Source of the DNA: Ferrithrix thermotolerans DSM 19514
GTDB lineage: Bacteria > Actinomycetota > Acidimicrobiia > Acidimicrobiales > CAIXPF01
DNA: 64,000 bases
Reading direction: 5' to 3'
Assembly (NCBI GenBank): GCA_945906305.1
Contig: CAMDQT010000008.1
Location: forward strand, 1-64,000
In this document: positions 24,813 to 41,651 of the stretch, piece by piece
Position numbering within the stretch: the stretch's first letter is position 1
How the letters are laid out: each line of letters opens with the position of its first letter
Notes under the pieces: model-generated
Database searches by the model: none
Told to the model about the DNA's origin: nothing
What the model saw: the letters and a program-made list of their open reading frames with translations, nothing else
Translations under genes and position numbers: made by a program

Positions 24813-26753
24813 TCAGCGGGTTATACCGCTGCCCTTGGTCGGCCCCTCCGCTGGCGCCTCGCCGTTGGTGTCGATGCCGAGATGGGCCCGCAGGTTGTCC
24901 AGTAGCGCCGGGTTGGCCGTGGTGCTCGAACTGACGAGCGGTTTGGCCATGGCGGACGATGCGGCCGGTCGAGCGGATCGGGCTTCGGCGGGGAGCGTCG
25001 CGTCGACGAGATTGCGATTAGCCGGAGGCGAGTAGGAGGCGACGCGCTTGGTGGCGCTGGCCGTCGCGGGCGACGGATTGTGCCGGGGCGGCGCCGGGGC
25101 GGCGCCGGTTTCGCGGTTGGTGCTGGCCGCCATCCTCGGGGGGTTCGAGGTCATGGAGCCTTTTGCCTCGCCTCGGGCCACCTTCGAACGGCGACGTCGG
25201 CCGCGCCTGGTCCGCTCGGCGTCGGCCTCGTAGCCGTAGCCGTAGCGGCCGTTGCGCTGCTCGGTGGACTGGTTGAGAACGGTGCCGATAACTCGGGCAT
25301 CGACGTGGCTGAGCGATTCGAGAGCGCGGCTGATGTCGCGTCGTCTGGACACCCCAGCGGTGGTGACGAACAGGGTTCCGTCCACCGCTCGGGCGATGGT
25401 GAGGGCATCCGCGACGGGCAACACCGGCGGAGCGTCAACGATGACGGAGAATCCACGCTCGACGAGTTCCTGCAACACCGCAGGAAAGGTCGGGACTCCG
25501 CTGAGCTGTTCCGCCGGCCATAACAAGTCGGCGGCGTTGGTTGGGCTCGGACCCGAGGTGATGATGTACAGCTCGGGGCAGCCCTCCACAAGTTGCATCG
25601 CGTCGTCGAGCGAATCGGTACCGAGCATGACGTTGGTGAGGCCAACGTCGTTGGGAAGGCCGAATCGCTTAGCGATCATCGGACGCCGCAGGTCGGCGTC
25701 AACCAGCACCGTCGGTGTGCCGCTTCGCGCCATTGCCACCGCGAGGTGGCCGGCGACCACGGACTTGCCTTCGCCAGGCCGGGCCGACGTGATCTGGATC
25801 GTGCGCAGGCCGCCACGGAGGCCGACGAATTGCACGGCCGCACGAAGATTGCGGAACGTTTCGCTGAGCAACGTGTTGTGCAGTGGGTCGATGATCTCCG
25901 AAGACAGTCGTCGAGAGACCTTGGGAATCTGTGAGAGCGTGGTAGCTGCGCCGGTCACCCGCTCTAGGCGGTCCTTCGAACGGATTCGATCGTCGATGAA
26001 TTCACGCATGAACGCCAGGCCGACGCCCATCATCAGACCAAGCACCGCCGCCATGGTGGCGGTACGCGCTGGCGTGGGGCTGAAGGGCCGCGTCGGCCGG
26101 ATCGCGGCGGAGAGCACCTGGGCATTGGAGGCGGCGGCAAGGTCGCTCATCAGGTCCAGGCCGTTCGTGTATTGCTCGTACAGCGCGATCTGGCGGTCAA
26201 CGGCGTCACGCTGGGCGCTGAGCGTGGTGTCTTTCGGGTCGAATCGGGTTCGCTGGGTCTTGAGCTCGTCAAGTTTCTCGGTGATGGCCCGTCGGGTGTT
26301 CGCCGAGCTATTGACGATGCGCTCGCTGCGCAGGGCGATGTAGGTCTCCGCGTAGGTGTCCGCCGCGAGCACGACCAAGTCAGGCAACGGGCCCTCTGCG
26401 GTGAAGGTGATGAGGTCGGCGGACTTGGACTGGCCAGCGACGGACACCTTGGCCTTGAAACCGAGCCGTGCCGCGACGGCGTCGCTGACCAGTCGGCTCT
26501 TGGCAAACACCAACTCATTTTCAAGTTGCCGTGCGACATCGCGAACCCCGCTCGCGGTCGGATCGAGGCTTTGGTTGGCGGTTTGCGCCGACATCAGAAT
26601 CTGTGTTTGGGCTCGGTACTGCTTCGGCTGGGAGACGGACCAAGCGAACGCCGCCCCCCCGGCGAGGATGGTCACGGCGACGATCAGCCACCACCTACGT
26701 CGAAGGACCGACAGGTATTCCGCCAACGTCAACTCGGGCGAGTAGTGCTCCAC
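24813..26753 (-). CDS. Chain-length regulator/BY-kinase (Wzc-type tyrosine autokinase)
   Basis: The 646-residue protein joins a Wzz/LPS chain-length domain to a bacterial tyrosine kinase. It has membrane helices at about 24-44 and 232-252 with an extracytoplasmic coiled region between them. Cytoplasmic ATP motifs are Walker A RPGEGKS (lysine 330), Walker A' LVDADLRRP and Walker B VIVDAPPVLP. A short tyrosine-bearing stretch (GRYGYGYEADAER) follows, then a ~120-residue low-complexity Ala/Pro tail. Such proteins control exopolysaccharide polymer length through autophosphorylation. I chose GTG 26753 because AAGGAG lies ten bases upstream and the protein then begins at the conserved SPELTLAEYLSVLRRRWW. 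It bounds the locus on the left. Confidence 0.9.
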   Translation of the reverse strand: MEHYSPELTLAEYLSVLRRRWWLIVAVTILAGGAAFAWSVSQPKQYRAQTQILMSAQTANQSLDPTASGVRDVARQLENELVFAKSRLVSDAVAARLGFKAKVSVAGQSKSADLITFTAEGPLPDLVVLAADTYAETYIALRSERIVNSSANTRRAITEKLDELKTQRTRFDPKDTTLSAQRDAVDRQIALYEQYTNGLDLMSDLAAASNAQVLSAAIRPTRPFSPTPARTATMAAVLGLMMGVGLAFMREFIDDRIRSKDRLERVTGAATTLSQIPKVSRRLSSEIIDPLHNTLLSETFRNLRAAVQFVGLRGGLRTIQITSARPGEGKSVVAGHLAVAMARSGTPTVLVDADLRRPMIAKRFGLPNDVGLTNVMLGTDSLDDAMQLVEGCPELYIITSGPSPTNAADLLWPAEQLSGVPTFPAVLQELVERGFSVIVDAPPVLPVADALTIARAVDGTLFVTTAGVSRRRDISRALESLSHVDARVIGTVLNQSTEQRNGRYGYGYEADAERTRRGRRRRSKVARGEAKGSMTSNPPRMAASTNRETGAAPAPPRHNPSPATASATKRVASYSPPANRNLVDATLPAEARSARPAASSAMAKPLVSSSTTANPALLDNLRAHLGIDTNGEAPAEGPTKGSGITR

Positions 26754-26966
26754 AGACGCAGGTCTCCTTGCTCGGTGCCGTTCTACTGTACGGCGGGGAA
26801 GTGGCGTAGCGTTGCCGTTGGGCGTCAAACACCACGACGCCGCTCAGTGGCCGTTGGGGCACTGTTGCCCGGGTCGGTCCTTGGTGAGAGTACGCATTCG
26901 GTACGAGCACGCAATCGGTCGAAAGCCCCGGTTTGGCGCGGCGGTTTTTGTTGGCTGGCTCGGCTC

Positions 26967-26972
26967 TAGACT
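26967..26972 (+). promoter_or_regulatory. Candidate -10 element of a leaderless cysC transcript
   Basis: TAGACT ends seven bases before the cysC ATG at 26980, and no Shine-Dalgarno sequence is visible there. In actinobacteria a -10 hexamer at this distance commonly gives a transcript that starts on the A of ATG. The -35 region (TTTTTG, 16 bases upstream) is weak. Confidence 0.4.
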
Positions 26973-26979
26973 TGCTGGC

Positions 26980-27594
26980 ATGCCCGAACCAACGGCGAAT
27001 ATCCGCTGGCATGCACCTGAGTTGACCCGCCCGGAGCGTTGGTCGCGTGCTGGCCATCGCGGTGCGACCGTGTGGTTCACCGGATTGTCCGGATCGGGCA
27101 AGTCCACGGTGGCCGCGGCGGTCGAACGGGCGCTGTTCGATGCCGGCCATGCCTCCTACCTGCTCGATGGGGACAACGTCCGTTTTGGACTCAATGCAGG
27201 GCTGGGCTTCTCACCGGAGGATCGGGACGAAAACGTGCGGCGGCTGTCGGAAGCGGCGGCGCTGTTCGCCGATGCCGGCCTGGTCTGTCTGGTGTCGGCC
27301 ATCAGCCCTTATCGCCACCAACGCGCCGCGGCGCGGGCGGCGCATGAGCGCGCCACGGTGGACTTCGTCGAGGTGTGGGTCGCTACTCCAATCGAGGAAT
27401 GCGAGCGTCGTGATCCCAAGGGTCTCTACCGCAAGGCCCGAAAGGGGGAGATCACCGGGTTCACCGGGATCGACGCCCCCTACGAGGCCCCTGAGGCGGC
27501 CGAACTGGTGATCGGCGAGCAGGAGACCCCACTTGCGGTGGTGGTTGACACGATCGTGCGGTTCCTGCACGAGCGAGCCATCCTCAGCCTCTGA
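26980..27594 (+). CDS. cysC: Adenylylsulfate (APS) kinase
   Basis: This 204-residue protein phosphorylates APS to PAPS, the sulfuryl donor for sulfotransferases. Motifs are canonical: P-loop WFTGLSGSGKST, LLDGDNVRFGLNAGLGFSPE, the ISPYRHQRAAAR arginine region and RRDPKGLYRKARKGEI followed by FTGIDAPYEAPE. The open frame reaches back to 26812, but the ATG at 26980 gives normal length. It is convergent with cysNC and overlaps its 3' end by 11 bases, within a strong stem-loop. Together with cysNC and cysD it supplies PAPS next to four sulfotransferase genes. Confidence 0.95.
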   Translation: MPEPTANIRWHAPELTRPERWSRAGHRGATVWFTGLSGSGKSTVAAAVERALFDAGHASYLLDGDNVRFGLNAGLGFSPEDRDENVRRLSEAAALFADAGLVCLVSAISPYRHQRAAARAAHERATVDFVEVWVATPIEECERRDPKGLYRKARKGEITGFTGIDAPYEAPEAAELVIGEQETPLAVVVDTIVRFLHERAILSL

Positions 27595-27606
27595 GAATGG
27601 CTCGCT
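27572..27606. terminator. Stem-loop formed by the converging ends of cysC and cysNC
   Basis: A 16-base-pair stem with one mismatch (27572-27587 with 27591-27606) and a CCT loop spans both stop codons. Each arm encodes the RAIL-containing end of an APS kinase on its own strand. It has no U-tract but could act as a bidirectional transcription barrier. Confidence 0.6.
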
Positions 27607-29521
27607 GCCGCAGTAGAGCGACAATCTGCTCCACACAGGCTGCAGTGTCCCGTTCCACCGTGTCCAACGTCAGATCGGCGTCCGTTGGACGGTCATAGGT
27701 GGCTGACACTCCGGGGAATTGCGGGATGTCGCCACGATCGGCGGCCTCGTAGAGACCCTCCTGGTCTCGTGCTCGGCAGACCTCGAGCGGGGTGTCGACG
27801 AACACCTCGATGAACCGATCGCGGCCGATCAGCTCGCGGGCGCGTTCGCGCACGTTGGACTTGGGCGCGGCGAGGGCACAGATGGCGATGATGCCCTGAT
27901 CGTTGAGAAGACGGGCGATCTCTGCGGTTCGTCGGGCGTTCTCGGAGCGTTCCTGGGCACTGAAGCCGAGATCGCGGCTGATACCGAGACGCATGTTCTC
28001 GCCGTCGAGACGGACCGTCGTCCATCCTGCGTCGAACAACGTTCGCTCGAGCGCACGAGCGATGGTGGTCTTGCCGGCCGCGGTGAGCCCGGTGAGGAAC
28101 ACCGTGGCGCCGACCTGGTTGAGCCGACGCTGTCGCTCGTCGGTGTCGATGGAACTCGAACGACCGGTCAGTCGCCGGTTCGGGGTGGCGTCCCACGCGT
28201 CGATGGAGGGCAACAACATGCCGGCGGCGACCGTGGCGTTGGTCAGGCGGTCGACGAGGATGAACGAGCCGGTGGTCCGATTCTCCTCATACCCATCGAA
28301 GAGCAGTTCGCGGTCAGCGTGCAGCGTGCACAACGCGATGTCGTTCAGGACGAGATTCTCGGCGGGGACCCTTTCGAGCGTGGTGATGTCGATGCGGTGC
28401 TCGATGCTTTCGATCGTGGCGTTCGAATAGCGGTTGTTGTGCATCATGAGGAACGAGCGGCCCGGCGTCACTTCGTCCTCGGCCATCCACACGATGTTGG
28501 CTTGTACCGCATGGCCTCGGGCCAACACGGCGCCCTGGTGCACGATCACGTCTCCCCGGGAAGCGTCGACTTCGTCGGCCAAGGTGAGGATGACTGATCG
28601 CCCCGGACCCGCCTCGGCCAGATCCCCGTCGAAGGTCACGATGCGTTCAACGGTGGTGCTGACCCCCGAGGGCACGACCTCGACTAGATCGCCGGGTCGG
28701 ACGATGCCCGACGCAATAGTGCCGGCGTAGCCCCGAAAGTCGAGATCGGGCCGAACCACGAGCTGGACCGGGAAGCGGAGCTGTTCCACGTCGCGTTGGG
28801 GCCGTAGCTCGACGTGTTCGAGGTGTTCCATCAGCGTTGGACCGTGGTACCAGTCCATGGCCGCGGACCGGTCCACGACGTTGTCGCCGTTGAGCGCCGA
28901 CATGGGAATGAACAACGGATCGGTGATGCCGACCTGGTTGGCGATCTCGCTCTGGTAGGCCGCACTGATCGTGTCGAACACTTCTTGGGACCAACCGCAG
29001 AGGTCCATCTTGTTGATGGCCACGACCACCTGTCCGATGCCGAGCAAGGCGGCGATGGAGCTGTGTCGACGGGTCTGGGGCAGCAGAGCTTTGCGGGCGT
29101 CGATGAGGATAATTGCCAGGTCGCAGGTCGATGCGCCGGTCACCATGTTCCGCGTGTACTGCTCGTGCCCGGGGGTGTCCGCGATGATGAATTTGCGTTT
29201 GGACGTCGAGAAGTAGCGGTAGGCGACGTCGATGGTGATGCCCTGCTCACGCTCCGCCTTCAGGCCGTCCATGAGCAAGGCCAGATCGACCTGCTCGCCG
29301 GCGTGACCGTGGCTCGCCGAGTCTTTGGCCACCGCCGCCAACTGGTCTTCGTAGAGCAGTTTCGAGTCGTAAAGAAGGCGGCCGATGAGGGTGGACTTGC
29401 CGTCGTCGACCGAGCCGCAGGTGAGCAGCCGCAGCAGGTCCTTGCTCTCGTGCTCCTTGAGATAGGCAATGATGTCCGTCGCGATCAGATCGGACTGGTG
29501 GGTACCACCGGAACTCGACAT
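27584..29521 (-). CDS. cysNC: Bifunctional sulfate adenylyltransferase large subunit/APS kinase
   Basis: The 645-residue protein fuses a GTPase of the CysN type to an APS kinase domain. GTPase motifs are GSVDDGKSTLIGRLLYDSK, DTPGHEQYTRNMVTGAS and VAINKMDLCGW, followed by EF-Tu-like beta barrels to about residue 440. The kinase domain (about 470-645) keeps a P-loop (GLTAAGKTT) but deviates at usually fixed sites, with LDGENMRLGI and ARDQEGLYEAADRGDI in place of LDGDN and DPKGLYKKAR. With CysD it makes APS using GTP hydrolysis. The ATG overlaps the cysD stop by one base. The upstream-extended frame lies within cysD. Confidence 0.95.
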   Translation of the reverse strand: MSSSGGTHQSDLIATDIIAYLKEHESKDLLRLLTCGSVDDGKSTLIGRLLYDSKLLYEDQLAAVAKDSASHGHAGEQVDLALLMDGLKAEREQGITIDVAYRYFSTSKRKFIIADTPGHEQYTRNMVTGASTCDLAIILIDARKALLPQTRRHSSIAALLGIGQVVVAINKMDLCGWSQEVFDTISAAYQSEIANQVGITDPLFIPMSALNGDNVVDRSAAMDWYHGPTLMEHLEHVELRPQRDVEQLRFPVQLVVRPDLDFRGYAGTIASGIVRPGDLVEVVPSGVSTTVERIVTFDGDLAEAGPGRSVILTLADEVDASRGDVIVHQGAVLARGHAVQANIVWMAEDEVTPGRSFLMMHNNRYSNATIESIEHRIDITTLERVPAENLVLNDIALCTLHADRELLFDGYEENRTTGSFILVDRLTNATVAAGMLLPSIDAWDATPNRRLTGRSSSIDTDERQRRLNQVGATVFLTGLTAAGKTTIARALERTLFDAGWTTVRLDGENMRLGISRDLGFSAQERSENARRTAEIARLLNDQGIIAICALAAPKSNVRERARELIGRDRFIEVFVDTPLEVCRARDQEGLYEAADRGDIPQFPGVSATYDRPTDADLTLDTVERDTAACVEQIVALLRQRAILRG

Positions 29522-30459
29522 CAGAAGTACCCTTCCCGCTTCTTTTCTTCCATGGACCCGGATTGGTCGTAGTCGATGACGCGGCCCTCTCGCTCGGAGC
29601 GGGTGGCCAGCAACATCTCCTGGATGATGTCGGGCAGGGTCTGCGCCGTGGACTCGACGGCTCCGGAGAGGGGATAGCACCCAAGGGTGCGGAATCGGAT
29701 GGATCGCATTTCCGGTTGTTCGCCCTCCTCGAAGCGGAAACGGTCGTCATCGATCATGATGAGGTTGCCGTCGCGCTGGACCACCGGACGCTCGGCGGCG
29801 TAGTACAGCGGCACGATCGGGATGTTCTCCAGCCAGATGTATTGCCAGATGTCGAGTTCGGTCCAGTTGCTCAGCGGGAACACCCGAATCGACTCGCCCT
29901 TGTGATGGCGTCCGTTGTACGCCCGCCACAGCTCGGGCCGCTGGTTCTTGGGGTCCCAGCGGTGGAACCGGTCGCGGAAGGAGAAGACCCGTTCCTTGGC
30001 CCGGGACTTCTCCTCGTCCCGACGGGCGCCACCGAACGCGGCGTCGAAGCCGTGCTGATCGAGCGCCTGCTTGAGGGCCTGCGTCTTCATCACGTCGGTG
30101 TAGTTCCGTGAGCCGTGGTCGAAGGGGTTGATGCCAGCGGCAATGCCCTCTTGGTTCGTGTGCACGATCAGGTCGAGACCGAGTTCGGCAACGGTGCGAT
30201 CCCGGAAACTGATCATGTCCCGAAATTTCCACGTCGTGTCGACGTGCAGCAACGGGAAGGGCAGGCGACCGGGCCAGAAGGCTTTTCGGGCCAGGTGGAG
30301 CATGACGGCAGAGTCTTTGCCGATCGAATACATCATGACCGGCTTGTCGAACTGAGCGACGACCTCGCGCATGATGTGGATGGCCTCGGCCTCAAGTTCC
30401 TCGAGGTGGGTGATGCGCACGGCGCCGGCGTGAGATACCGGCGGAGCCTCGGCAACCAT
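29521..30459 (-). CDS. cysD: Sulfate adenylyltransferase small subunit
   Basis: The 312-residue product is the ATP-pyrophosphatase subunit that forms APS from sulfate and ATP. The PP-loop [17 protein letters not shown] lies at about residues 45-61. [36 protein letters not shown] and [19 protein letters not shown] are strongly conserved CysD segments, and [14 protein letters not shown] and the C-terminal KREGYF complete the match. AGGAAG lies about six bases before the ATG. It heads the cysD-cysNC operon and is divergent from the first glycosyltransferase gene. No assimilatory APS/PAPS reductase accompanies it. Confidence 0.97.
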
Positions 30460-30704: not shown

Positions 30705-31931
30705 GTGAAGAGTCCTTATCGACCATCGGCTCCCTTTCGTCCCGGGGACGCGGAGTTGAACGTACTGGTGGTCTCGCCGCCAGCACCGGTGTGGGGTGCG
30801 CAGCTCTACCTTCTCGACCAGGTCGAGCCACTGCGCTCGCGCGCTATCACCCTGACGCTGGCGAGCCCGGCCGATTCGCCCTTCGCTGAGGAGTGGGTGG
30901 CTCGTGGCTGGCCCATGGTCGAGTTGCCGTTACGCCTGCACGGTGGGCTGCGCCACGCCCCTGGCAGCGATCGTCGGGCCAGCCCAGGGGGTCTGTGCCT
31001 CGACGCGGTGGCGATGGTTCGCTCTGCCGCCCGCCTGGCCCGAACCGGACGACATTTCGACCTGTTGCACTCCTACTCGTTGCGGTCCCATCTCGAGGTC
31101 GCGTTGGCCGGACACCTCTCTCGGCGCCCATCGGTACTCGATCTGGTGAACATCGTTCGACCGGGTGTCGGCCGCCACGTGCTGCGCGGCATCGCCCGCA
31201 TGGCGTCGCTGACCGTGGCCAACTCCGCCGCCACTGCCGCGGTGGTGGGTTCCCGGGCGAGGGTCAGGGTGATCCAGCCGGGGATCGACCTGCATCGCTT
31301 CGCCCCCGGCGCGCCCGAACCGGGTCTACGTGAAGAGTTGACGGCGGACCCTTCGGCTCCGCTGGTGGCGATCATCGGGCGCCTCGATGTGCGCAAAGGC
31401 ATCCAAGTCTTGCTTGAGGCCATGGCGCGCCTGGGCGGTTCCGCCGCGGCAGCGCACCTCGTGGTGGTCGGTGATGCCGGAACCGGACCGCCGGAGTTCG
31501 CCGAGCAGTTACGGCGTAACGGTGAGGCCTTGTTGGGGGAGCGGGTGCGCTTTGTGGGACGACGATCTGACGTGCCGCAAATTCTCAGGACGGTGGACGT
31601 GATGGTCAACGCCTCCAGGGCCGAACCGTTCGGCCTGAGCGTCTTGGAGGCCCAGGCCTGTGGCACGGTGGTGATCGGCACGAATGCCGGGGGTATCCCC
31701 GAGTTCGTCGAAGATGGGGTGACCGGGCTGCTGGTGGCCCCCTTCGAGGTCGCCCCGATGGTGGCCGCGCTCGAACGAGTGTTCGCTGAGCCGGCGCTGG
31801 TCGAGTCGATGAGGGCCGAGGCGTTACAGCGGGCTCATCCGGCGCGCGGTCTCGAAGCCCAATACGACGAGCTGGCGGCGGTTTACCACTCCGTCGCCGG
31901 GCGATCAGTCAGGCCTTCAGCAGGCCGTTGA
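30705..31931 (+). CDS. GT-B glycosyltransferase (family 4-like)
   Basis: This product of 408 residues has the two Rossmann halves of a retaining GT4 enzyme. The N-terminal acceptor half includes LNVLVVSPPAPVWGAQLYLL and DLLHSYSLRSHLEVALAGH. The C-terminal donor half includes VAIIGRLDVRKGIQVLLEAM and the EX7E-type region SRAEPFGLSVLEAQACGTVV, then GTNAGGIPEFVEDGVTGLLV. It probably adds one sugar to a lipid-linked repeat unit. It starts with GTG and shares 15 bases at its end with a convergent secreted-protein gene. It is the first glycosyltransferase after the PAPS genes. Confidence 0.88.
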   Translation: MKSPYRPSAPFRPGDAELNVLVVSPPAPVWGAQLYLLDQVEPLRSRAITLTLASPADSPFAEEWVARGWPMVELPLRLHGGLRHAPGSDRRASPGGLCLDAVAMVRSAARLARTGRHFDLLHSYSLRSHLEVALAGHLSRRPSVLDLVNIVRPGVGRHVLRGIARMASLTVANSAATAAVVGSRARVRVIQPGIDLHRFAPGAPEPGLREELTADPSAPLVAIIGRLDVRKGIQVLLEAMARLGGSAAAAHLVVVGDAGTGPPEFAEQLRRNGEALLGERVRFVGRRSDVPQILRTVDVMVNASRAEPFGLSVLEAQACGTVVIGTNAGGIPEFVEDGVTGLLVAPFEVAPMVAALERVFAEPALVESMRAEALQRAHPARGLEAQYDELAAVYHSVAGRSVRPSAGR

Positions 31932-32603
31932 CCAAGCCGTCGGGCAACCTGTCCAGCTGGTCGGTGGCGTCAGGGTGCGGCCTTGGCTCACCATGATGAA
32001 GTCGATTGTCAGGTTGAACGGCACGTGGGTGTCGATGTCCGGTAGCTGATAACAGGTCGTGGCGCAGCTTTTGGTGTACATCAACTTGCCGGTGATGGGG
32101 TCCTTCAGCAGCGGACGGATGTCCGAGGCCTGCTTGGTGTAATCCCACGTACCGCCCTTCTTCCACCAGCTACCGAAGTTGCCGATGTCGAAGTAGTAGG
32201 TCCCGTTGGTGGTGATCGGCGCTTTGCTTCCGGAGGAACAGGTTTCCCAGTAAAACTTGATCGTCGGTATACCGGGACCCTGGCGATGGCGCCACATGCA
32301 GATATGGACCCACAACGCTTTGGTTGAGGGCTTGCCCGATACGACGACTCGCAGGTACGACTTGCCCTCGCGGTAGTTGGCTGGTGTGAGGTAATTCAGC
32401 GGTTGGTTGAGGACCGGCCAGATGTACTGGTCCTTTCTAGCGATGCCGTTTACCGCGAAGATCGTCCGTTGCGTTTCCGCCGCTGCCGGGGTGATTGCGG
32501 CCGTAGGAGGAGATTCGGCTTGCGCCGCTGCCGCCGGGAACAGCACCGGTGCGAGCAGGACAGTGCCTAGCAATACGCGCGTCAAGAACGGTCGAAGTTT
32601 CAT
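31917..32603 (-). CDS. Secreted protein with a GH26-associated C-terminal-type domain
   Basis: The 228-residue protein has a Sec signal peptide (MKLRPFLTRVLLGTVLLAPV with AAAAQA before the likely cut). Residues from about 80 on, including LWVHICMWRH, GNFGSWWKK and DIRPLLKDPITGKL followed by a CATTC pair, resemble the C-terminal domain of the GH26-like protein encoded at 44961-46625. This suggests a free-standing carbohydrate-associated module. The last ~20 residues (TLTPPTSWTGCPTAWSTAC) look less natural than the neighbouring frame, so a frameshift near 31975 is possible. It is convergent with the first glycosyltransferase gene. Confidence 0.7.
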   Translation of the reverse strand: MKLRPFLTRVLLGTVLLAPVLFPAAAAQAESPPTAAITPAAAETQRTIFAVNGIARKDQYIWPVLNQPLNYLTPANYREGKSYLRVVVSGKPSTKALWVHICMWRHRQGPGIPTIKFYWETCSSGSKAPITTNGTYYFDIGNFGSWWKKGGTWDYTKQASDIRPLLKDPITGKLMYTKSCATTCYQLPDIDTHVPFNLTIDFIMVSQGRTLTPPTSWTGCPTAWSTAC

Positions 32604-32735
32604 CCGCCACCTTCGTGTTGCGACTACCCCGCCAAAGGGTTTCCTGCCTTGACGCTATACCACGCTGGGAGGGTTTTCAATCGCTTGATGTGGTGAATGT
32701 GCCGGTGGGGTGGGGCGTGATTGGCTGAGTACAAC

Positions 32736-32755
32736 GGCCCGGTAAAGGCCGGGCC
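32736..32755. other. Intergenic 7-bp hairpin
   Basis: GGCCCGG (32736-32742) pairs perfectly with CCGGGCC (32749-32755) around a six-base loop. It lies 47 bases before the first sulfotransferase gene, in the divergent gap with the secreted-protein gene. There is no U-tract, so a terminator is unlikely. It may be a leader hairpin or protein site. Confidence 0.35.
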
Positions 32756-32802
32756 AACCGCCCGTAGGATGACCGGCGTGACCTTGCTCGAGGCGGTGGC
32801 CC

Positions 32803-33699
32803 ATGGTGCCTGACTTCCTCGTGGTGCCTGACTTTTTCGTCATCGGCGCCTACCGCTGTGGCACCACGTCGTTGTACCGGTCGCTGCGCCAGCACCCGCA
32901 AGTCTTCCTGCCGCTGGAGAAGGAACCGAACTTCTTCGCCGTGGATGGCAACCCCGAAGCCGGGGCCGTGCTGCGCTCTCGCAGCACGGTGACGCCCTCC
33001 GACTACCACGCGCTGTATGCGAGCGCATCGCCCGGCCAGAAGACCGGTGACATCTCACCAGAGTATTTGCGCAACCCGCGGGTGGCCTCCCGCCTCGCTG
33101 AGGTCGCGCCTCGCGCACCACTCGTAGCGGTGTTGCGCAACCCGATTGAACGGGCCTGGTCGGACTACCTGTTGCATGTACGTGACGGCGACGAGCCGTG
33201 CGATCTGTTGCGAGATGCCTTGGCCCAGCAGGCGCAACGCCAACAAGTCGAGCATCGTGGCGGCCATTATCTCGATTCGGGGTTCTACGCGACGCAATTG
33301 GCTCGCTACTTCGCACTGTTCCCTCGAAACCAGATCCAGGTGCATCTCTTCGAGGAGCTGATGCAAGACCGTCAGACCGTATTGGCCCAGATGTTTCGTC
33401 ACATCGGTGTCGACGCCGCCTTCGTGCCGGAGCCCGAGCCGGCGGTGAATGTCTCGGGAATTCCCGACTCGAAGGGGCTCGCCTGGGTCTTGCGCGCCCG
33501 CAAGGTAGTCCGGCCGCTGGTCAACCGCGGGGTGATCGAGCGGGCCCGCCCGGCCTGGGAGCGTTTCCTTAACCGGCGGCTTCGCCGCCCTGCTCTCGAG
33601 CAGGAGGATTGGGATTTGCTCGCGGGTATCTTCCGCGACGACGTGCTGCGGCTGGGCGATCTACTCAACCGTGATCTTTCCAACTGGCTGGTGAGGTAA
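32803..33699 (+). CDS. Sulfotransferase (PAPS-dependent, family 1/3-like)
   Basis: The 298-residue protein carries the 5'-phosphosulfate loop FFVIGAYRCGTTSLYRSLRQ near residues 10-29 and LPLEKEPNFFAVD. The 3'-phosphate strand is LVAVLRNPIERAWSDYLLHV. HYLDSGFYATQLARYFALFP matches bacterial heparan-type sulfotransferases. It would transfer sulfate from PAPS to a sugar hydroxyl. It is the first gene of a tight run reaching the second glycosyltransferase pair. The ATG has GAGG upstream. A GTG seven codons later is an alternative start. The acceptor is unknown. Confidence 0.9.
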   Translation: MVPDFLVVPDFFVIGAYRCGTTSLYRSLRQHPQVFLPLEKEPNFFAVDGNPEAGAVLRSRSTVTPSDYHALYASASPGQKTGDISPEYLRNPRVASRLAEVAPRAPLVAVLRNPIERAWSDYLLHVRDGDEPCDLLRDALAQQAQRQQVEHRGGHYLDSGFYATQLARYFALFPRNQIQVHLFEELMQDRQTVLAQMFRHIGVDAAFVPEPEPAVNVSGIPDSKGLAWVLRARKVVRPLVNRGVIERARPAWERFLNRRLRRPALEQEDWDLLAGIFRDDVLRLGDLLNRDLSNWLVR

Positions 33700-33703
33700 C
33701 CAC

Positions 33704-34327
33704 ATGTTGCTGTCAGAGCAGCACAACTACATCTACGTCCATGTGTACAAGGTCGCCGGACAGTCCGTGAAGCTCGCCTTGCGCCGCCATCATTATCGCT
33801 ACTTGCCTGGGTTGCGCACGCCGTTGTCCCACGTGTTGGAGTCGCCGCAGGCCTACACGTTCCGCAGCGTTGAAGCCCACGCCACCGCGACGCAACTACG
33901 TGACTGGTTGGGTCAGGAGAAGTGGGACCGTCTTTATTCGTTCTCCTTCGTGCGCAATCCGTGGGATTGGCAGGTTTCGCTGTACCACTTCATTCAGAAG
34001 AACAAGTTCAACTACCAGCGGCGCATGGTCTCCTCGATGTCATTTGATGAGTACATCCGCTGGCGGGTCCAGGAGGATCTGCACCTCCAGAAGGATTTCA
34101 TCTACGACCGCCACGGCGAGAAGCTCGTGGACTTCGTCGGTCGATACGAGAACCTTGGCGAGGACTTCCAGACGGTGTGCCGCCAGATCGGCGTGAAGGC
34201 CGAACTACCCCATGTGAACGCCAGTTCTCACGCCACGTTCCGTAGTTACTACAACGACACGACTGCGTCCCTGATCGCCGAGGCATTCGCGGCGGATATA
34301 GACGCCTTCGGTTATAAGTTCGAGTAG
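33704..34327 (+). CDS. Sulfotransferase family 2-like protein
   Basis: This 207-residue product resembles the compact carbohydrate sulfotransferases (Sulfotransfer_2, chondroitin/heparan 2-O type). YIYVHVYKVAGQSVKLALRR holds the PAPS 5'-phosphosulfate loop, and YSFSFVRNPWDWQVSLYHFI holds the 3'-phosphate arginine and serine. FDEYIRWRVQEDLHLQKDFI and VGRYENLGEDFQTVC follow in the expected order. It begins five bases after the previous sulfotransferase, so the two are probably co-translated and act on one polymer. Confidence 0.88.
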   Translation: MLLSEQHNYIYVHVYKVAGQSVKLALRRHHYRYLPGLRTPLSHVLESPQAYTFRSVEAHATATQLRDWLGQEKWDRLYSFSFVRNPWDWQVSLYHFIQKNKFNYQRRMVSSMSFDEYIRWRVQEDLHLQKDFIYDRHGEKLVDFVGRYENLGEDFQTVCRQIGVKAELPHVNASSHATFRSYYNDTTASLIAEAFAADIDAFGYKFE

Positions 34328-34338
34328 CGGTTCTGCCG

Positions 34339-35934
34339 ATGAGCATTCTTGTGCCAACCTCCGTCGATGGCCCGCCTGAAGGCGACGATGCAAGCGTCTC
34401 GCCGCTCGACGTTCTCATCGCGCCTCTCGATCAACGAGGCCCGGCGATAGGTAGCGCGGTGCGTTGGGTGGCCTCGGTGCAGGGTGGATCCCAGGTCATC
34501 CGGCTACTTGGAACCATCGGGCTGGCACGTCTGCTGACGCCGGCCGACTTCGGCCTGGTCTCGTTGGTGATGGTGATCACCAACATGGTCGAACGAGTTC
34601 TCGGTGACACTGGGACCACATCCGCGTTGATACGCCACGACCATTTGACTCAACGCTTGGCCAGCACCGTGTTCTATTGGAACCTTGTAGTCGGGGCGGC
34701 GACCACGCTTCTGTTCGTCGTTGCCGCCCGGCCGATGGCGATGTTGCTCGGTGACCGCGACGCGGCAGGGGTGGCCCGGGTCATCGGTTGTCTGGCGCTG
34801 GTCAATGCCACCACCTATGTGCAGACCGGTCTGTTTCGGCGCACCTTGCAGTTCAAGCGCCTCGCTGGAATCAACATCGTGAATCTGACCGTGACCATGG
34901 GGTCCAGCCTCGGGCTCGCCGCCATGGGTTGGGGCGCCTGGGCCCTGGCCGTGGGCACCCTCACGGGAAGCGCGTCAGCGGCGATGGTGGTGTGGGTCTG
35001 GTCGGATTGGCGGCCGAGCCGTCATTTCGCCTGGATCGACCTCGAACCGATCCGAGGGTTCAGCGTTCGTCTCAGCGCTCAGAACCTCCTGAACTATTTC
35101 GCTCGGGTCGGGGACCGCTTCGTGGTCGGCCGCCTGCTCGGCGTGACCGACCTCGGTTACTACGGGATGGCGAATCGACTTATCAACTATCCGCTCATGG
35201 CGTGCACGCAAACTGGCCGTGAGGCGATCTACCCCAATCTGGTCCGGATCAAGCACGACGCGGCGGCGCTGCGGGTGATGTATCGGCGCACGCTCGCGGG
35301 AATCGCCTTGGTGATGTTGCCAATTTGCCTTACTACTGCCGCAGTGGCGGATCCCTTGGTCCACGTCGTACTGGGCGAGCTGTGGGTACCGGCAATTCCG
35401 CTGATCTCCATCGTTGCGGTGGTAGGTGCGTTGCAGTCGCTCACGGTGACCACGGGCCCGATCTACCTCGTATTGGGTCGGGTCGATCTGTTGCTGCGCT
35501 GGAGCATCATCAGCTGCGTGGTGTTGCTTTTGGGCTATCTGGCCGGGGCGCACTGGGGTGTGACGGGGGTCGGTTTGGGCTACCTAGGTGGCACCGTCGT
35601 GCTCGCCTACCCCGCGTTTCGGATTCCCCTGCGGCTTATCGATGCCCGTCCGTCCTATTTGTTCGGGGCGCTGCTCGGTCCGGTGGCCTGCGCCGCTGCC
35701 GGGTCCGCCGCCGCCTACCTTTCGGTGCGTGCGTTCGCCGCCGCCGGACGGCCCGATTGGGTCACCCTGCTGGCCGGGGTTGGGATCTCTGGTGTCGTGA
35801 CCGGCGCGGCGTTGCTGTTGGTCCGACCCGAGGCATTACGCGACGCCTGGGCGGTGGCGACGAGCCGACGTGGCCCGTCACGATCGAGTCGAATGGCAGC
35901 GACGCCCGAGCAGAAAGATTCTGACAAGCGGTGA
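34339..35934 (+). CDS. Wzx-type polysaccharide flippase (MATE/MOP superfamily)
   Basis: The 531-residue protein is highly hydrophobic, with about 12-14 membrane helices in two bundles. LIRLLGTIGLARLLTPADFGLVSL at the start is the usual opening of polysaccharide transporters, and FVVGRLLGVTDLGYYGMANRL is the mid-protein signature. It would flip lipid-linked repeat units to the outer face of the membrane. A ~30-residue polar tail (SRRGPSRSSRMAAT) ends the protein. Its stop overlaps the next glycosyltransferase start by GTGA. Confidence 0.88.
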   Translation: MSILVPTSVDGPPEGDDASVSPLDVLIAPLDQRGPAIGSAVRWVASVQGGSQVIRLLGTIGLARLLTPADFGLVSLVMVITNMVERVLGDTGTTSALIRHDHLTQRLASTVFYWNLVVGAATTLLFVVAARPMAMLLGDRDAAGVARVIGCLALVNATTYVQTGLFRRTLQFKRLAGINIVNLTVTMGSSLGLAAMGWGAWALAVGTLTGSASAAMVVWVWSDWRPSRHFAWIDLEPIRGFSVRLSAQNLLNYFARVGDRFVVGRLLGVTDLGYYGMANRLINYPLMACTQTGREAIYPNLVRIKHDAAALRVMYRRTLAGIALVMLPICLTTAAVADPLVHVVLGELWVPAIPLISIVAVVGALQSLTVTTGPIYLVLGRVDLLLRWSIISCVVLLLGYLAGAHWGVTGVGLGYLGGTVVLAYPAFRIPLRLIDARPSYLFGALLGPVACAAAGSAAAYLSVRAFAAAGRPDWVTLLAGVGISGVVTGAALLLVRPEALRDAWAVATSRRGPSRSSRMAATPEQKDSDKR

Positions 35935-36905
35935 GCAGCCATAACGAACATTCTCCGGACCAGTCGATGGCGACGAGTGCCACCAAGACGCGGGTCGCGA
36001 TCTGTGCCCTCACCTACCGGCGGCCACAGGGCTTGGCGCGCTTGCTCAACGCCCTGGCTGAGCTCGAGGTGCGGCCCGAGGTCGCTCTGCGCGTGGTGAT
36101 AGTCGACAACGATGCCGACGCTTCGGGTGCCACAACTGTCGATGACGCACGAGAACGACTGGCCGTGCCGCTGACCTATGTTGTCGAGCCGGCGCGATCG
36201 ATTTCTATCGCCCGCAACCGTGCGGTGCGCGAGTCCGTCGACTCCGATTTCATTGCCTTTATCGACGACGACGAGTGGCCGGAGTCGGATTGGCTCAAGG
36301 AGTTACTCGAAAGCCAGGCACTGACCGGAGCCGACATTGTGGCTGGCGGTGTGCTCCCATCTTTCGAGATTGAGCCCGATGCTTGGGTGCGCAAGGGCGG
36401 ATTCTTCGACCGGCGCCGGCACCCGCACAACGAGTCCATCCGCTACGCCACGACGAGCAATGTGCTGATCCGTCGAGTCTGTCTCGACCTTGTGGATGGT
36501 CCGTTCGATGAAGCCTTCGGTCTGTCCGGTGGGGGGGACACCCACCTCTTTGCGCAGCTTCGCGAGGCCGGTTGTTCGATCGTGTGGTGCGACCGTGCCC
36601 CGGTACAGGAGCTGATCGCCAAGTCGCGGGTGTCTACCCGCTGGCTCTTGAGGCGAGAATATCGGCGGGGTCAGACGCTCAGCTTGTCGTTGCGGGCAAG
36701 GGGGATGACCCCATGGCTCGTCCTGCGCCGCGTTGGCAACGGTTTGTCCAATATCGGGCTCGGTGCCCTTGGCGCGCTGTTTGGTGTTCGGCGAGGTCGT
36801 GTCGGGGTGCTGATTGGTATACGGCGAGTGAACTTCGGCGTTGGGATGCTCACCGGCCTCGCCGGTGTGCGTCATCTCGAGTATCGGAAGGTCCATGGTG
36901 CCTGA
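35931..36905 (+). CDS. Family 2 glycosyltransferase (paralogue A)
   Basis: This GT-A enzyme of 324 residues has AICALTYRRPQGLARLLNAL, VVIVDNDADASGA and the metal-binding FIAFIDDDEWPESDWLKELL. The acceptor region includes SGGGDTHLFAQLREAG, and HLEYRKVHGA closes the protein. It starts with GTG overlapping the flippase stop, and its own end overlaps the next sulfotransferase start by 11 bases. It is clearly paralogous to the gene at 40713-41651, which also ends in VHG-plus-one and overlaps a sulfotransferase by 11 bases. Confidence 0.9.
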   Translation: MSSHNEHSPDQSMATSATKTRVAICALTYRRPQGLARLLNALAELEVRPEVALRVVIVDNDADASGATTVDDARERLAVPLTYVVEPARSISIARNRAVRESVDSDFIAFIDDDEWPESDWLKELLESQALTGADIVAGGVLPSFEIEPDAWVRKGGFFDRRRHPHNESIRYATTSNVLIRRVCLDLVDGPFDEAFGLSGGGDTHLFAQLREAGCSIVWCDRAPVQELIAKSRVSTRWLLRREYRRGQTLSLSLRARGMTPWLVLRRVGNGLSNIGLGALGALFGVRRGRVGVLIGIRRVNFGVGMLTGLAGVRHLEYRKVHGA

Positions 36906-37893
36906 TCGTTTGACCAGACCTGATTCGAACTACGTACAACTCGCCGCGAAGGCCCTTGTCCGTGAGGCCATCTGGTGGGCTACGTGCCGACATCGGCAGG
37001 GTGCCCAGCGTAATATCTGCCTGTTCGCCACCCGACGTGGGGGTAGCACCTGGGCGATGGAGATCATCGCCGCCAACCGTGGCCTTCGAGCGCTGAACCA
37101 GCCGCTGGAGACTCTCAGCCGCAATCTCACCTACGCTCAGGCGTTCGAGATCCCACGCTTTCCCCAGGGCCAGATCACCTCGCTTGGGGAGCCTGAAGCG
37201 GTCGCATTGGGACATTACGTGGCTCGAATGTTCTCCGGCGAACTCGTTGTCAACGCTCCGATCCGCTTCTGGCAGAGTGATTTCGATCGGGTATCGGACC
37301 GTATCGTGCTCAAGATCACCGACGCCAAGGCGGTTATTGGCTGGTTCGACGAGAACGTGGACGCAGACATTCTTTACCTGACCCGCCACCCGGTGGCTCA
37401 GTCGCTGTCCTGCATCCGTAATGGATGGACCTTGACCAGCCGTTCCTACCTGGCCGACCCGAGGTTCTGCGCCACCTACCTGGGAGCAGCGGAAGGGCGT
37501 TGCCACGAGGTCGTGGCACATGGTTCCGTCCTCGAACAATGGGTACTCAACTGGGCGCTGGAGAACGTGGCTCCGTTGTCCCTGTTGCCGGATCGTCCGC
37601 AGTGGCTCCATTTGCGCTACGAGGACGCCGTGCTTCACGCCGAACGTGAGCTCCTGCGGCTGGCACAGCGACTTGGTTTGAGGGACATGGAGCGCATGGA
37701 GCAGGTTCTACGACGTCCCTCAGGATCGTCGCGCCGGTCCCTCGGTGGCACGCGTGCCGCGATCAAGAAGGGCGACCGGTCGGGCGCGCTCGACGGTTGG
37801 AGGCACAAGGTCACCGCAGAGGACCTGCAAAGGACAGCCTCGGTGTTGGAGTTGGTCGGCATCGACCCCAAGGCTGTCGTCGAAAAATGGTGA
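36895..37893 (+). CDS. Sulfotransferase family protein
   Basis: The 332-residue product carries NICLFATRRGGSTWAMEIIA, a PAPS-binding loop near residue 40. ILYLTRHPVAQSLSCIRNGW matches the 3'-phosphate-binding strand, and WLHLRYEDAVLHAERELL is the usual RYED segment of sulfotransferases. The open frame reaches back to 36841, but the ATG at 36895 avoids a long overlap and leaves an 11-base one with the preceding GT2 gene. It probably sulfates the sugar added by that neighbour, which is inference from coupling. Its acceptor is unknown. Confidence 0.82.
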   Translation: MVPDRLTRPDSNYVQLAAKALVREAIWWATCRHRQGAQRNICLFATRRGGSTWAMEIIAANRGLRALNQPLETLSRNLTYAQAFEIPRFPQGQITSLGEPEAVALGHYVARMFSGELVVNAPIRFWQSDFDRVSDRIVLKITDAKAVIGWFDENVDADILYLTRHPVAQSLSCIRNGWTLTSRSYLADPRFCATYLGAAEGRCHEVVAHGSVLEQWVLNWALENVAPLSLLPDRPQWLHLRYEDAVLHAERELLRLAQRLGLRDMERMEQVLRRPSGSSRRSLGGTRAAIKKGDRSGALDGWRHKVTAEDLQRTASVLELVGIDPKAVVEKW

Positions 37894-38053: not shown

Positions 38054-39277
38054 ATGACGGGCGCTGGGCGCCAGTTCCGCTCTATCGCGGTACACGACTA
38101 TTCGGGCCATCCCTTCCAGGCCCAGCTCAGTCGGGAGTTGGCGCGTCGTGGCCATGCAGTGACGCACTACCACTGCCCGTCTTTCTCGACGCCCAAGGGC
38201 AAACTCGAACGCGAGGAGTTCGACCCGCCGACGCTTCGTATCGAGCCGGTCCGGTTGCGCCGGCCCTTCGCCAAGTATTCCGGGGCGCGGCGCTTTGGCC
38301 AGGAGATCGAGTACGGCTTGCGTCTTGGCGCGCGCTTGCGCCGGGAACGTCCAGAGCTGGTGTTGTCGAGCAACACTCCGCTACTCGCGGCGGCGGTCCT
38401 GCAGGCTGTCCTGCTTGCTTCACGTGTTCCAGTGGTCTTTTGGCAACAGGACGTTTACAGCGTGGCGATGGCTAACCATGCGCGCCGACGGCTACCCCGA
38501 CTCGGAGCAGCCTTGGGGTCGGTGTTCATAGGCCTCGAGAAGCTTTTGCTCAAGACCAGTCGACGTGTGGTCACCATCAGCAACGACTTCTCTGCGACGC
38601 TCGACGAGTGGGGCGTGAAAGCTGACCGGGTCGACGTGGTGGAGAACTGGGCACCGATTGATGAGTTGCCCCTGCGCCCGCGCCGCAACGCCTGGTCGCA
38701 CCGTCATGGCCTCGATGACCTCAAGGTTCTGCTGTATTCGGGCACGCTCGGACTCAAGCACGATCCCTCGATGTTGCTGGCCTTGGCTGAGACATTTGAA
38801 AGTCGCGGTGATGTGCGGGTGGTGGTTGCCTCCGAAGGGCGGGGAGCGGATTGGCTGGCCGAACATGGTTCGCACCTGTCCTCGCTGGTTCTGGTCGGCT
38901 TCCAGCCCTATGACGACCTGCCCGACATGATGGCGTCGGCCGAAATACTCGTGGCGCTGCTCGAGCCCGACGCCAGTTGCTTCTCAGTTCCGTCGAAGGT
39001 CCTGACCTATCACTGCGCCGGCCGGGCCATACTGGCGGCGCTGCCGAAGGAAAACCTTGCCGCCCGGATCATCGAGCACGAAGGCTCTGGCATCGTGGTG
39101 TCCTCCGCCGACCACGGGGCGATCGTGACGGCGGGCCGGAAGCTCATCGACGATGTTGAGCTGAGCCGGTTGATGGGGGACCGGGCTCGGGCCTACGCGG
39201 TTGACACCTTCAACATCAGCACCATCGGCGATCGTTTCGAGACGATCATCGAGCAGGTGTGCAACACCGATCGGTAG
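38054..39277 (+). CDS. GT-B glycosyltransferase (family 4, WcaI/WbuB-like)
   Basis: This 407-residue protein starts near FRSIAVHDYSGHPFQAQLSR and has FWQQDVYSVAMANHARRRLP, a segment typical of WcaI-like fucosyl- or N-acetylfucosaminyltransferases. The donor domain shows VLLYSGTLGLKHDPSMLLAL and LLEPDASCFSVPSKVLTYHC, the latter with the phosphate-binding loop. The ATG at 38054 gives a normal start. A 160-base gap precedes it, the largest within this run, so an internal promoter is possible. The sugar specificity cannot be fixed by eye. Confidence 0.87.
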   Translation: MTGAGRQFRSIAVHDYSGHPFQAQLSRELARRGHAVTHYHCPSFSTPKGKLEREEFDPPTLRIEPVRLRRPFAKYSGARRFGQEIEYGLRLGARLRRERPELVLSSNTPLLAAAVLQAVLLASRVPVVFWQQDVYSVAMANHARRRLPRLGAALGSVFIGLEKLLLKTSRRVVTISNDFSATLDEWGVKADRVDVVENWAPIDELPLRPRRNAWSHRHGLDDLKVLLYSGTLGLKHDPSMLLALAETFESRGDVRVVVASEGRGADWLAEHGSHLSSLVLVGFQPYDDLPDMMASAEILVALLEPDASCFSVPSKVLTYHCAGRAILAALPKENLAARIIEHEGSGIVVSSADHGAIVTAGRKLIDDVELSRLMGDRARAYAVDTFNISTIGDRFETIIEQVCNTDR

Positions 39278-39288
39278 GGGACGGCGCA

Positions 39289-40716
39289 GTGAACAGGTCC
39301 TCCATGGTGATGTTCGCGCTGGCCGGCATCGGGCTGTTGTGGCTCTTCGCCTGGTTCGTGCGACTCGAACGTCGGAACCAGCGTCACACGATCTTCGTGA
39401 TTTTCGTAACCGGCTATCTCGCGGAGGCGATTCTGGCCTCCCAATCAGCCCGCGTGGCCGTCGGCATCCTGCGGCCGAAGATCGCCGGACAGGACTTCCG
39501 GCTGCCCGACGTACTGATCGTCCTCGTGCTGGCGGCCCGCTGCTTTGGGACCGCTAGGGGTGGACGCATCATGTCCGGGGTCATGTCGATCTGCGCCTTC
39601 GGGGCATGGTACGCAACGGCGGCCGTGGTCGGGCTACTCAATCAGATGCCGACCGCGGTTGTTCTGTTTCAGGGCAAGGCGATCTTCTACGTCCTTGGAG
39701 CTGTCATTGTCGGCTCAGGTGTTGACACTGCCCGCCTCTCCGAGCACTTGGCGCTACCGGCGGTGGTGCTTGCCTCGGTGTTGGCGGTGGCCGCCATCCT
39801 CGGGTTGCTGCATCGCAGCATCAGCGTGGTGACCCCGGTGCAGCGCTTCGATCACCTAGGCATGGTCAGCAACGACACGGCCTCGGTACTGGTCGTCATC
39901 GGTGCCTTGGTGCTCGTAGCCGAGGCGGTCCGACCACGTCGCAGGCGGGCGTTGGTGGTGGCCGGAATCTGGTTGCTTATGGCCCCGTTGGTCGGGGACC
40001 ACCGGGCGACCTACCTGGTGCTCATGGTCGTGGTCGGCATGATGTTGCTCGCGGTGTTTGGCCGGACGTGGAGCCGTCGATCGAGCGTCAGACCATCCGT
40101 GCTGATGTGCTCCGTGTTAGGCGTCGTGGTGTTCGGCATGGCTGCCGCTAGTCTCACGCCGCTGTCGACGGTGGTGCTCCAACGATTCGACACCGCATTT
40201 GCAGGAGAGGCGACCGCCCGCAGTTCCGAGTCACGAGTTGTCATGGCCGAACGTGCGGTCGAGCACATTTCCGAGCACCCAATTATCGGCTCGGGAGTCG
40301 GCATGCAAGTCCTGCGTACCGGTGAGTACATGGACGAAGATCTCGCGTCGGCACACAACTTTTTGCTCGACATCACCCTGCGGTCCGGTCTAGTCGGCCT
40401 GACCTTGTTCTTGGTGGTGCTGTTCCACGCCCTGCGCATCGGCGTGCAGCGGTGGCGGACCGAGCCCGACCACCGCACCGCGGTGGTCTGTTTGGCCGCG
40501 ACCCTGGGTGTGGCGGGGGTCTTGAGCAAGGCGATGGTCGAACCGGCGTTGGACAAATATCGCCTCAGCATCTTGTTCGGCCTATGTGTCGGCGTCATCT
40601 TCTGCGCTGATCGGCGTCCAACCCAGGTTCCGGTGCCGGGTCTGCCCACTCGTGGGCCTCGGGCCATCGGCCCGATGACGCCGTCGATGGCGGATGTCAT
40701 CACCCCGGCCCGATGA
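39289..40716 (+). CDS. O-antigen ligase/Wzy-type polymerase
   Basis: The 475-residue integral membrane protein has about ten to eleven hydrophobic helices and an extracytoplasmic loop in its second half. AVEHISEHPIIGSGVGMQVL followed by SAHNFLLDITLRSGLVGLTL is the diagnostic Wzy_C (O-antigen ligase) signature, with GSG and HN motifs. It would polymerise or ligate lipid-linked repeat units outside the membrane. I chose GTG 39289 with AGGGG upstream rather than the upstream ATG inside the previous gene. Its stop overlaps the next GT2 start by ATGA. Confidence 0.87.
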   Translation: MNRSSMVMFALAGIGLLWLFAWFVRLERRNQRHTIFVIFVTGYLAEAILASQSARVAVGILRPKIAGQDFRLPDVLIVLVLAARCFGTARGGRIMSGVMSICAFGAWYATAAVVGLLNQMPTAVVLFQGKAIFYVLGAVIVGSGVDTARLSEHLALPAVVLASVLAVAAILGLLHRSISVVTPVQRFDHLGMVSNDTASVLVVIGALVLVAEAVRPRRRRALVVAGIWLLMAPLVGDHRATYLVLMVVVGMMLLAVFGRTWSRRSSVRPSVLMCSVLGVVVFGMAAASLTPLSTVVLQRFDTAFAGEATARSSESRVVMAERAVEHISEHPIIGSGVGMQVLRTGEYMDEDLASAHNFLLDITLRSGLVGLTLFLVVLFHALRIGVQRWRTEPDHRTAVVCLAATLGVAGVLSKAMVEPALDKYRLSILFGLCVGVIFCADRRPTQVPVPGLPTRGPRAIGPMTPSMADVITPAR

Positions 40717-41651
40717 GCGAACGCGAAATGACCGACCTCGTTCTGTGCATCATCACCTTCCGTCGTCCTGAGGGGCTCGCCCGTCTTCTCCAGGCGACCG
40801 GTCGGCTGGTGCTACCACCGGGGGTCCGCTTGTCCCTAGTGATCGTGGACAACGACCCCGACGCTACGGCACGATCCGTCGTTGAGGCCGCGGCCCTCGA
40901 CCATCCGCTTCGTTACGAGATAGAGCCGAGACGCGGTATTTCCTCTGCTCGAAACCGTGCCCTTCGACTGGCGCTGGGGTGTGGACCGCAGTTCATAGCC
41001 TGGATGGATGATGACGAGCATCCGGCGCCGGATTGGCTCTGCAACGTGTTTGAGACCCAGAACCTCACCGGTGCAGATGTGGTCATGGGGCCCGGGGTGC
41101 CCTGTTTCGAGGCGGGGACGCCGCAGTGGATCGAGAAGTCCGGCCTGTTCGATCACGATCGCTTCGAGACCGGTGACACCTTTCCCTACTTCCATACCCG
41201 CACCAGCGGTGTCCTGGTGCGAGCGGCGATGGTTCCGGCCGAGGGATTCGACGAGCGACTCGCACTCACTGGTGGGGAGGACCGGCTGTTCTTCACGCGG
41301 ATTCATCGTTCCGGCGGACGCTTCGTATGGGATGACCGCGCCGTCATGCACGAGGACATTCCGCCCAGCCGGGCCACCTCACGATGGTTGCTTCGTCGCT
41401 GGTACCGAACTGGCGTTACCCGCAGCCTCGTCATGATCTATCTTGATCGACCTGGCGTGCTGCGCCGTGGCCGCCGCTGCCTCGGAGCTCTAGCTATGGT
41501 CGGCCAAGGAGTTGTCCGCACCCTCCTCGGGTTGCACCGCGGCCGAACAGAGGTCCTGCGTCGTTGGCGTCTCGTCATGTTGGGCCTTGGAGCATTCGCT
41601 GGTGCGCTTGGAATTCATTACGAGGAGTATCGGACCGTTCATGGAAGTTGA
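40713..41651 (+). CDS. Family 2 glycosyltransferase (paralogue B)
   Basis: This GT-A product of 312 residues shares with paralogue A the opening CIITFRRPEGLARLLQATG, VIVDNDPDATARSVVE and the metal site FIAWMDDDEHPAPDWLCNVF. LTGGEDRLFFTRIHRSGG and the C-terminal HYEEYRTVHGS correspond as well. It probably transfers a related sugar, or the same one at another position. It begins in the ATGA overlap with the Wzy-type gene. Its stop lies 11 bases inside the next sulfotransferase gene, exactly as in the first pair. Confidence 0.9.
   Translation: MSEREMTDLVLCIITFRRPEGLARLLQATGRLVLPPGVRLSLVIVDNDPDATARSVVEAAALDHPLRYEIEPRRGISSARNRALRLALGCGPQFIAWMDDDEHPAPDWLCNVFETQNLTGADVVMGPGVPCFEAGTPQWIEKSGLFDHDRFETGDTFPYFHTRTSGVLVRAAMVPAEGFDERLALTGGEDRLFFTRIHRSGGRFVWDDRAVMHEDIPPSRATSRWLLRRWYRTGVTRSLVMIYLDRPGVLRRGRRCLGALAMVGQGVVRTLLGLHRGRTEVLRRWRLVMLGLGAFAGALGIHYEEYRTVHGS

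Follow-up and report, generated by a model that had tools for sequence, protein, structure and literature searches.

The EPS locus and its two domain carriers

The window analysed here is a 64,000-nt stretch of Ferrithrix thermotolerans DSM 19514 (contig CAMDQT010000008.1, positions 1 to 64,000). It holds an exopolysaccharide (EPS) locus in which one domain occurs both in a free-standing secreted protein and at the C-terminus of a GH26 protein. The features are listed below.

24813..26828, minus strand: Wzz/BY-kinase-type chain-length regulator (Pfam)
26812..27594, plus strand: stand-alone APS kinase (Pfam, E 1.1e-66)
27584..29680, minus strand: CysN/C, sulfate adenylyltransferase GTPase plus APS kinase (Pfam)
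29521..30459, minus strand: CysD-type sulfate adenylyltransferase subunit (PAPS_reduct family; Pfam, E 5.6e-59)
31917..32603, minus strand: free-standing secreted domain protein (free copy 1), 228 aa, ATG at 32603, stop at 31917-31919
32517..32603, minus strand: classical Sec signal peptide of this protein, residues 1-29, read from the sequence, with putative cleavage between AQA and ES
31920..32465, minus strand: domain proper, residues 47-228 of the free protein (profile match of 262 bits; alignment)
32803..34327, plus strand: two sulfotransferases (Sulfotransfer_3, Sulfotransfer_2; Pfam), the first divergent from the free-standing domain gene
34339..35934, plus strand: Wzx-type flippase (Pfam Polysacc_synt_3, E 3.3e-74)
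36841..37893, plus strand: weak sulfotransferase-family protein (Pfam, E 1.9e-4, below cut-off)
39259..40716, plus strand: Wzy-type polymerase/ligase (Pfam Wzy_C, E 8.1e-14)
41512..42597, plus strand: sulfotransferase (Sulfotransfer_3; Pfam, E 1.5e-14)
44961..46625, plus strand: GH26 protein with C-terminal domain copy, 554 aa (Pfam PF02156, E 1.9e-10, above cut-off)
45108..46019, plus strand: GH26 catalytic region (RLGHEMTGPFYPW aligned to RPLHEANGDWYPW of endoglucanase H, PDB 2cip)
46170..46622, plus strand: C-terminal domain copy, the last 151 aa of the GH26 protein (184 bits; after a Thr/Pro/Ser-rich linker)
46768..49494, plus strand: second GH26 (tandem paralogue), 908 aa, in which tandem-95/cadherin-like repeats replace the domain
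50986..59514, plus strand: surface protein of 2842 aa at the end of the locus, without the domain (Pfam)

Several GT2/GT4 proteins and an epimerase are also encoded here (Pfam). The locus thus unites Wzx, Wzy, Wzz, GTs, sulfotransferases and PAPS synthesis, and it is conserved in three species: two relatives keep the genes in this order, their proteins being about 60-95% identical, and both domain carriers hold the same slots in all three, amid genes for PAPS synthesis, GTs, sulfotransferases, Wzx and Wzy. In one relative (G003) the Sulfotransfer_2 gene lies on the ends of both contigs C29 and C19, hence the two contigs are probably one locus split in assembly. Judged from its gene content, the locus probably makes a PAPS-fuelled, sulfated Wzx/Wzy exopolysaccharide. 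Two APS kinases are present in the window, the stand-alone protein and the C-terminal domain of CysN/C, whose genes are convergent and nearly overlapping; among the ORFs picked in the relatives, the stand-alone gene was not seen.

The GH26 protein at 44961-46625 matched the Pfam GH26 family with 41 bits, compared with a cut-off of 20.2. Its RLGHEM is aligned to RPLHEA of endoglucanase H, and the Glu of the HE motif, which we take to be the GH26 catalytic acid/base, is present; a KPVSYAEW segment, in which the catalytic-nucleophile Glu may lie, is found outside the HMMER alignment. Behind the Thr/Pro/Ser linker, the domain forms a discrete module separate from the catalytic domain, and it is presumably non-catalytic, with no invariant catalytic residue set. 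Since the second GH26 has repeats where the first has the domain, the main difference between the two enzymes is what is appended to them. Profile searches found no domain copy in other GH26 proteins of the class, and the C-terminal parts of these proteins were different or absent.

From the letters alone, an earlier note had proposed that the signal-peptide protein and the last ~150 residues of the GH26-like protein share an order of features and represent one unnamed domain. The first of these proteins is indeed a 228-aa minus-strand ORF with a classical Sec signal, and both sequences contain the ICxW motif (HICMW in the free protein, QICFW in the GH26 tail), a further W after WW, an IR-L-KDP-(S/T)G-L segment (IRPLLKDPITGKL free, IRVLFKDPASGRL fused) and a C-x3-C pair (CATTC and CGSVC, respectively), all in the sequence described. 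The glycine before WW is likewise in its place, adjacent in the fused copy (SGWW) and two residues ahead in the free protein (GSWW). A further Cys common to both, absent from that description, lies in WETC (free) and AQAC (fused).

By blastp the two sequences were aligned over 132 columns at 26% identity with E 2e-14. The Smith-Waterman score was 127, compared with a mean of 31 (sd 4.7) and a maximum of 59 in 2000 shuffles (z 20), and profile scores were 262 bits for the free domain and 184 bits for the GH26 tail. The free protein and the GH26 tail are homologous and share one domain of about 150-185 aa. That the two are unrelated, and owe their motifs to chance or to convergence from similar composition, has a negligible probability: an identity of only 26% would suit it, but blastp, the shuffles and the profile scores rule it out, intermediate family members connect the pair, and the strand order is alike in both predicted models.

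Copies, conservation and distribution of the domain

The earlier description of a domain used once alone and once fused in the same locus holds for the two copies seen there, but the family is larger, with 13 copies in four architectures. Three copies are found in the window genome and five in each of two congeneric MAG genomes (G002 and G003). With the free protein as the only query, the own genome yielded two further copies: the GH26 tail (E 1.9e-7) and, on contig C1 outside the EPS locus, the N-terminal part of a large secreted surface protein (E 1.9e-28). In each relative, free copies 1 and 2, the latter divergently transcribed, are joined by the GH26 tail and two others, one in a ~470-aa protein that contains a Thr-rich linker and one in a surface protein within a 922-aa frame. 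One copy of the window genome and two per relative are found away from the EPS locus, with unrelated genes as neighbours. On the multi-module, PKD-containing surface proteins the domain is N-terminal. Two domain-bearing proteins (L034:8879-10285 and L006:9557-12583) also share a second unnamed module of ~190 aa, about 39% identical; and the 2842-aa surface protein of the locus shares with the domain-bearing surface protein of contig C1 a ~380-aa module (38% identity) and a PKD-containing module (42% over 127 aa; both by blastp).

Numbered as in the free protein, the columns invariant in all 13 copies are P74, V88, C102, W104, C122, W146, W147, W153, D168, L174, C180 and C184, i.e. four Cys and four Trp among them, with D168 as the sole invariant acidic residue and no invariant His, Ser, Lys or Arg. 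The domain of the free protein combines the four invariant Cys with a C-terminal CPxxW...C extension, which is present in every copy except the two free-copy-2 sequences and the three GH26 tails. Maximum-likelihood phylogeny groups the GH26 tails in a single clade with full support and places the clades of free copies 1 and 2 as sisters to each other, so free copy 2 is probably older than the split of these species and was later lost in the window lineage. In the relatives this copy lies at L005:7026-7652 and L004:1510-2136, divergently transcribed, and the equivalent interval of the window is 32604-32802, which leaves free copy 1 and the sulfotransferase only about 200 bp apart; searching the own genome returned no remnant of it.

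G002 and G003 each have an orthologue of free copy 1 at the corresponding place in the locus (dN/dS 0.195 against G002). Pairwise dN/dS of the domain copies in the EPS locus was 0.15-0.38, compared with 0.07-0.14 for CysD, GT4 and the GH26 catalytic region. As orthologues are kept in two other species at these ratios, the domain genes are real; they are constrained by purifying selection and evolve faster than the enzymes. A promoter and terminator scan gave nothing informative.

A profile of 13 rows, which scored 184-274 bits on all genus members, matched 3 of 298 genomes of the order, all from this genus. Matches were likewise confined to the own genus among 395 genomes of the class and among 396 of the phylum, apart from one match in G652 (E 0.006) which contains four internal stops and was rejected as noise. 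No profile match was returned from 297 genomes of another actinobacterial class, in a search run without an internal positive control. The single sequence P0001 reached relatives at 25% identity. Plasmids gave no domain match, and viral contigs no match for the GH26 tail. Among the genomes searched (order, class, phylum and another class) the domain is therefore restricted to the genus. Within the family, the three locus-bearing genomes hold three to five copies each, and the congener G001 (88% complete) and two other genomes lack both the domain and the Sulfotransfer_2 gene of the locus, a pattern that supports glycan binding and a link to the EPS.

Searches of Pfam, NCBIfam, PHROGs and PDB sequences returned nothing meaningful for the domain, in agreement with its having been called unnamed; a weak DUF234 match in 2 of the 13 members (E 0.068) was treated as noise. 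By every sequence test applied, the domain is a new family.

Predicted fold, charge and candidate function

AlphaFold models were built from six-row alignments, which limits their quality. Both are nearly all-beta, with mean pLDDT 69 and pTM 0.71 for the free domain and mean pLDDT 54 and pTM 0.52 for the GH26 tail, and at these pLDDT values their strand order is similar. Foldseek returned jelly rolls, chiefly from capsid proteins of viruses, at TM-scores too low to be meaningful. For both models, CBM11 headed a second-look structural alignment, alone or in a tie (Z 6.7 with rmsd 3.5 over 126 aligned positions; Z 7.5 with rmsd 2.9 over 114), CBM30 was also listed (Z 5.2 and 6.8), and capsid jelly rolls had Z similar to CBM11. 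According to the alignment tool's own note, Z below 8 is the range of common arrangements. Thus, the fold, which we assign with low-to-moderate confidence to the jelly-roll beta-sandwiches, a form taken by many CBMs and by viral capsids, does not single out a carbohydrate-binding module (CBM), as Z of 6.7-7.5 is in the noise range and capsids score alike. Kinship to viral capsids was rejected, these matches being taken as the common jelly-roll arrangement. Membership of CBM11 was rejected by sequence, because Pfam PF03425 had no hit among the 13 copies, even at thresholds up to E 10, and hhalign gave a probability of about 0.1% against two CBM11 sequences.

The free copies have a basic pI of 9.2-9.7 and a net charge of +8 to +11, those fused to GH26 have a pI of 4.5-4.6 in the relatives and of 6.6 in the window species, and the remaining copies range from 5.7 to 8.6; in two of the three species the net charges of free and fused copies are opposite. 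The positive charge of the free copies fits an anionic ligand. At the same time, with the free copies basic and the fused ones neutral to acidic, the two may not share a ligand. The earlier suggestion of a carbohydrate-binding module for the polymer of the locus itself is compatible with the predicted fold and with the company the domain keeps, but given the charge contrast and the copies outside the locus, one shared ligand, the own polymer, is only one possibility.

Our best guess is a glycan-binding module for matrix retention. Such a function is favoured by the C-terminal position on GH26 after a Thr/Pro linker, the N-terminal position on surface proteins and the predicted jelly roll. The four invariant Trp are conserved aromatics that we count for glycan binding, and they could instead be core residues and not part of a binding face. 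In the mechanism we propose, the domain would be a non-catalytic, disulfide-stabilised jelly-roll beta-sandwich that binds extracellular polysaccharide. On GH26 it would hold the glycosidase on or near the polymer, as a CBM does. The free basic copy, and its duplicate in the relatives, would act as a small soluble matrix lectin for an anionic, probably sulfated EPS, and would hold together or coat the product of the same Wzx/Wzy locus; at the N-terminus of large proteins, the domain would attach these proteins to the matrix. We lean slightly towards this combination of a GH26-held module and a free matrix lectin, both acting on the EPS of the same locus, in which fold, glycan binding, ligand and role are all inferred. 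In its strongest form, the family would be a genus-restricted set of binding modules for the own sulfated EPS, divided between GH26 targeting and free lectins with charge tuned between them, which is conceivable but doubtful.

The polymer bound need not be the EPS. If it were a wall or surface polymer found throughout the genus, the domain would be a cell-surface anchor that holds GH26, the surface proteins and the free protein at the envelope. The copies on several types of secreted protein, some of them outside the EPS locus, the restriction to one genus, and the lack of LPXTG or a C-terminal transmembrane segment in any carrier (as judged by eye) would all suit such an anchor. We nevertheless consider it rather unlikely, as family genomes without the locus are also without the domain, a stand-alone domain has no cargo to anchor, and the copies differ strongly in charge.

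Less probable still is a protein-protein module, in which the free copy would dock on, or compete with, the GH26 tail or the large surface proteins, as a scaffold or inhibitor. Jelly-roll folds often self-assemble, capsid jelly rolls were matched in the structure searches, and in two species the basic free and acidic fused copies are complementary; but the window species has a near-neutral fused copy (pI 6.6), a conserved interface was not found, and there was no cohesin- or dockerin-like Pfam match. A small enzyme acting on the EPS, e.g. a lyase or esterase, would also be secreted, compact, equipped with conserved cysteines and encoded in an EPS locus, but it is very unlikely, since D168 as the only invariant acidic residue argues against acid/base catalysis, no His, Ser, Lys or Arg is available as an invariant alternative, and fusions to GH26 and to structural surface proteins are typical of binding modules.

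Comparison with known systems

The closest published case to the window locus is the wps-1 cluster of Actinoplanes missouriensis, which contains Wzx/Wzy/Wzz, the GH26 gene wpsE and two sulfotransferases, with a gene for sulfate adenylyltransferase/APS kinase adjacent to it, and for which a sulfated EPS was predicted (PMC13390465). To its authors' knowledge, no further Wzx/Wzy cluster that includes GH26 had been characterised, and their GH26 mutant formed some abnormal sporangia (PMC13390465). WpsE is described there only as a GH26 domain (residues 38-320), and the main text of that paper makes no mention of carbohydrate-binding modules (PMC13390465). The window locus resembles wps-1 in Wzx/Wzy/Wzz, GH26, sulfotransferases and sulfate adenylyltransferase/APS kinase, a likeness judged by gene content. 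In contrast to wps-1, it encodes two GH26 proteins and four of the sulfotransferase family, includes the genes for PAPS synthesis, and adds the free-standing secreted domain protein and the 2842-aa surface protein.

Among named binding modules, CBM11 (e.g. in C. thermocellum Lic26A-Cel5E) comes from a parent enzyme that contains GH26, like the carrier of our domain, and its jelly-roll-type beta-sandwich ranked first for both models, within the noise range (Z 6.7 and 7.5); there is no sequence relation, and the Cys/Trp pattern is peculiar to the domain described here. CBM112, from a Bacteroides GH26 beta-mannanase (PMC13357471), is a recently named CBM family tied to GH26, as here. By description the two are set apart, CBM112 being inserted inside the catalytic domain and serving plant-mannan degradation, whereas our domain is C-terminal and tied to an EPS locus. 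The domain clearly qualifies as a candidate for a new named family, one whose ligands can be tested.

Sulfated bacterial polysaccharides are little known outside cyanobacteria, a point made for actinomycetes (PMC13390465). If the proposed binding is true, an EPS-recognising domain would provide a handle to detect, purify and engineer sulfated polymers, and would show how a freshwater lineage of Acidimicrobiia builds its matrix. The matrix-lectin proposal has a precedent in LecB of Pseudomonas aeruginosa, a small lectin shown experimentally to bind the producer's own EPS, Psl, and to stabilise the matrix (PMC6522473). We use LecB on Psl as a works-like model only, with no sequence relation claimed: the free copy, a putative lectin, may act in a similar way on the EPS of its own locus.
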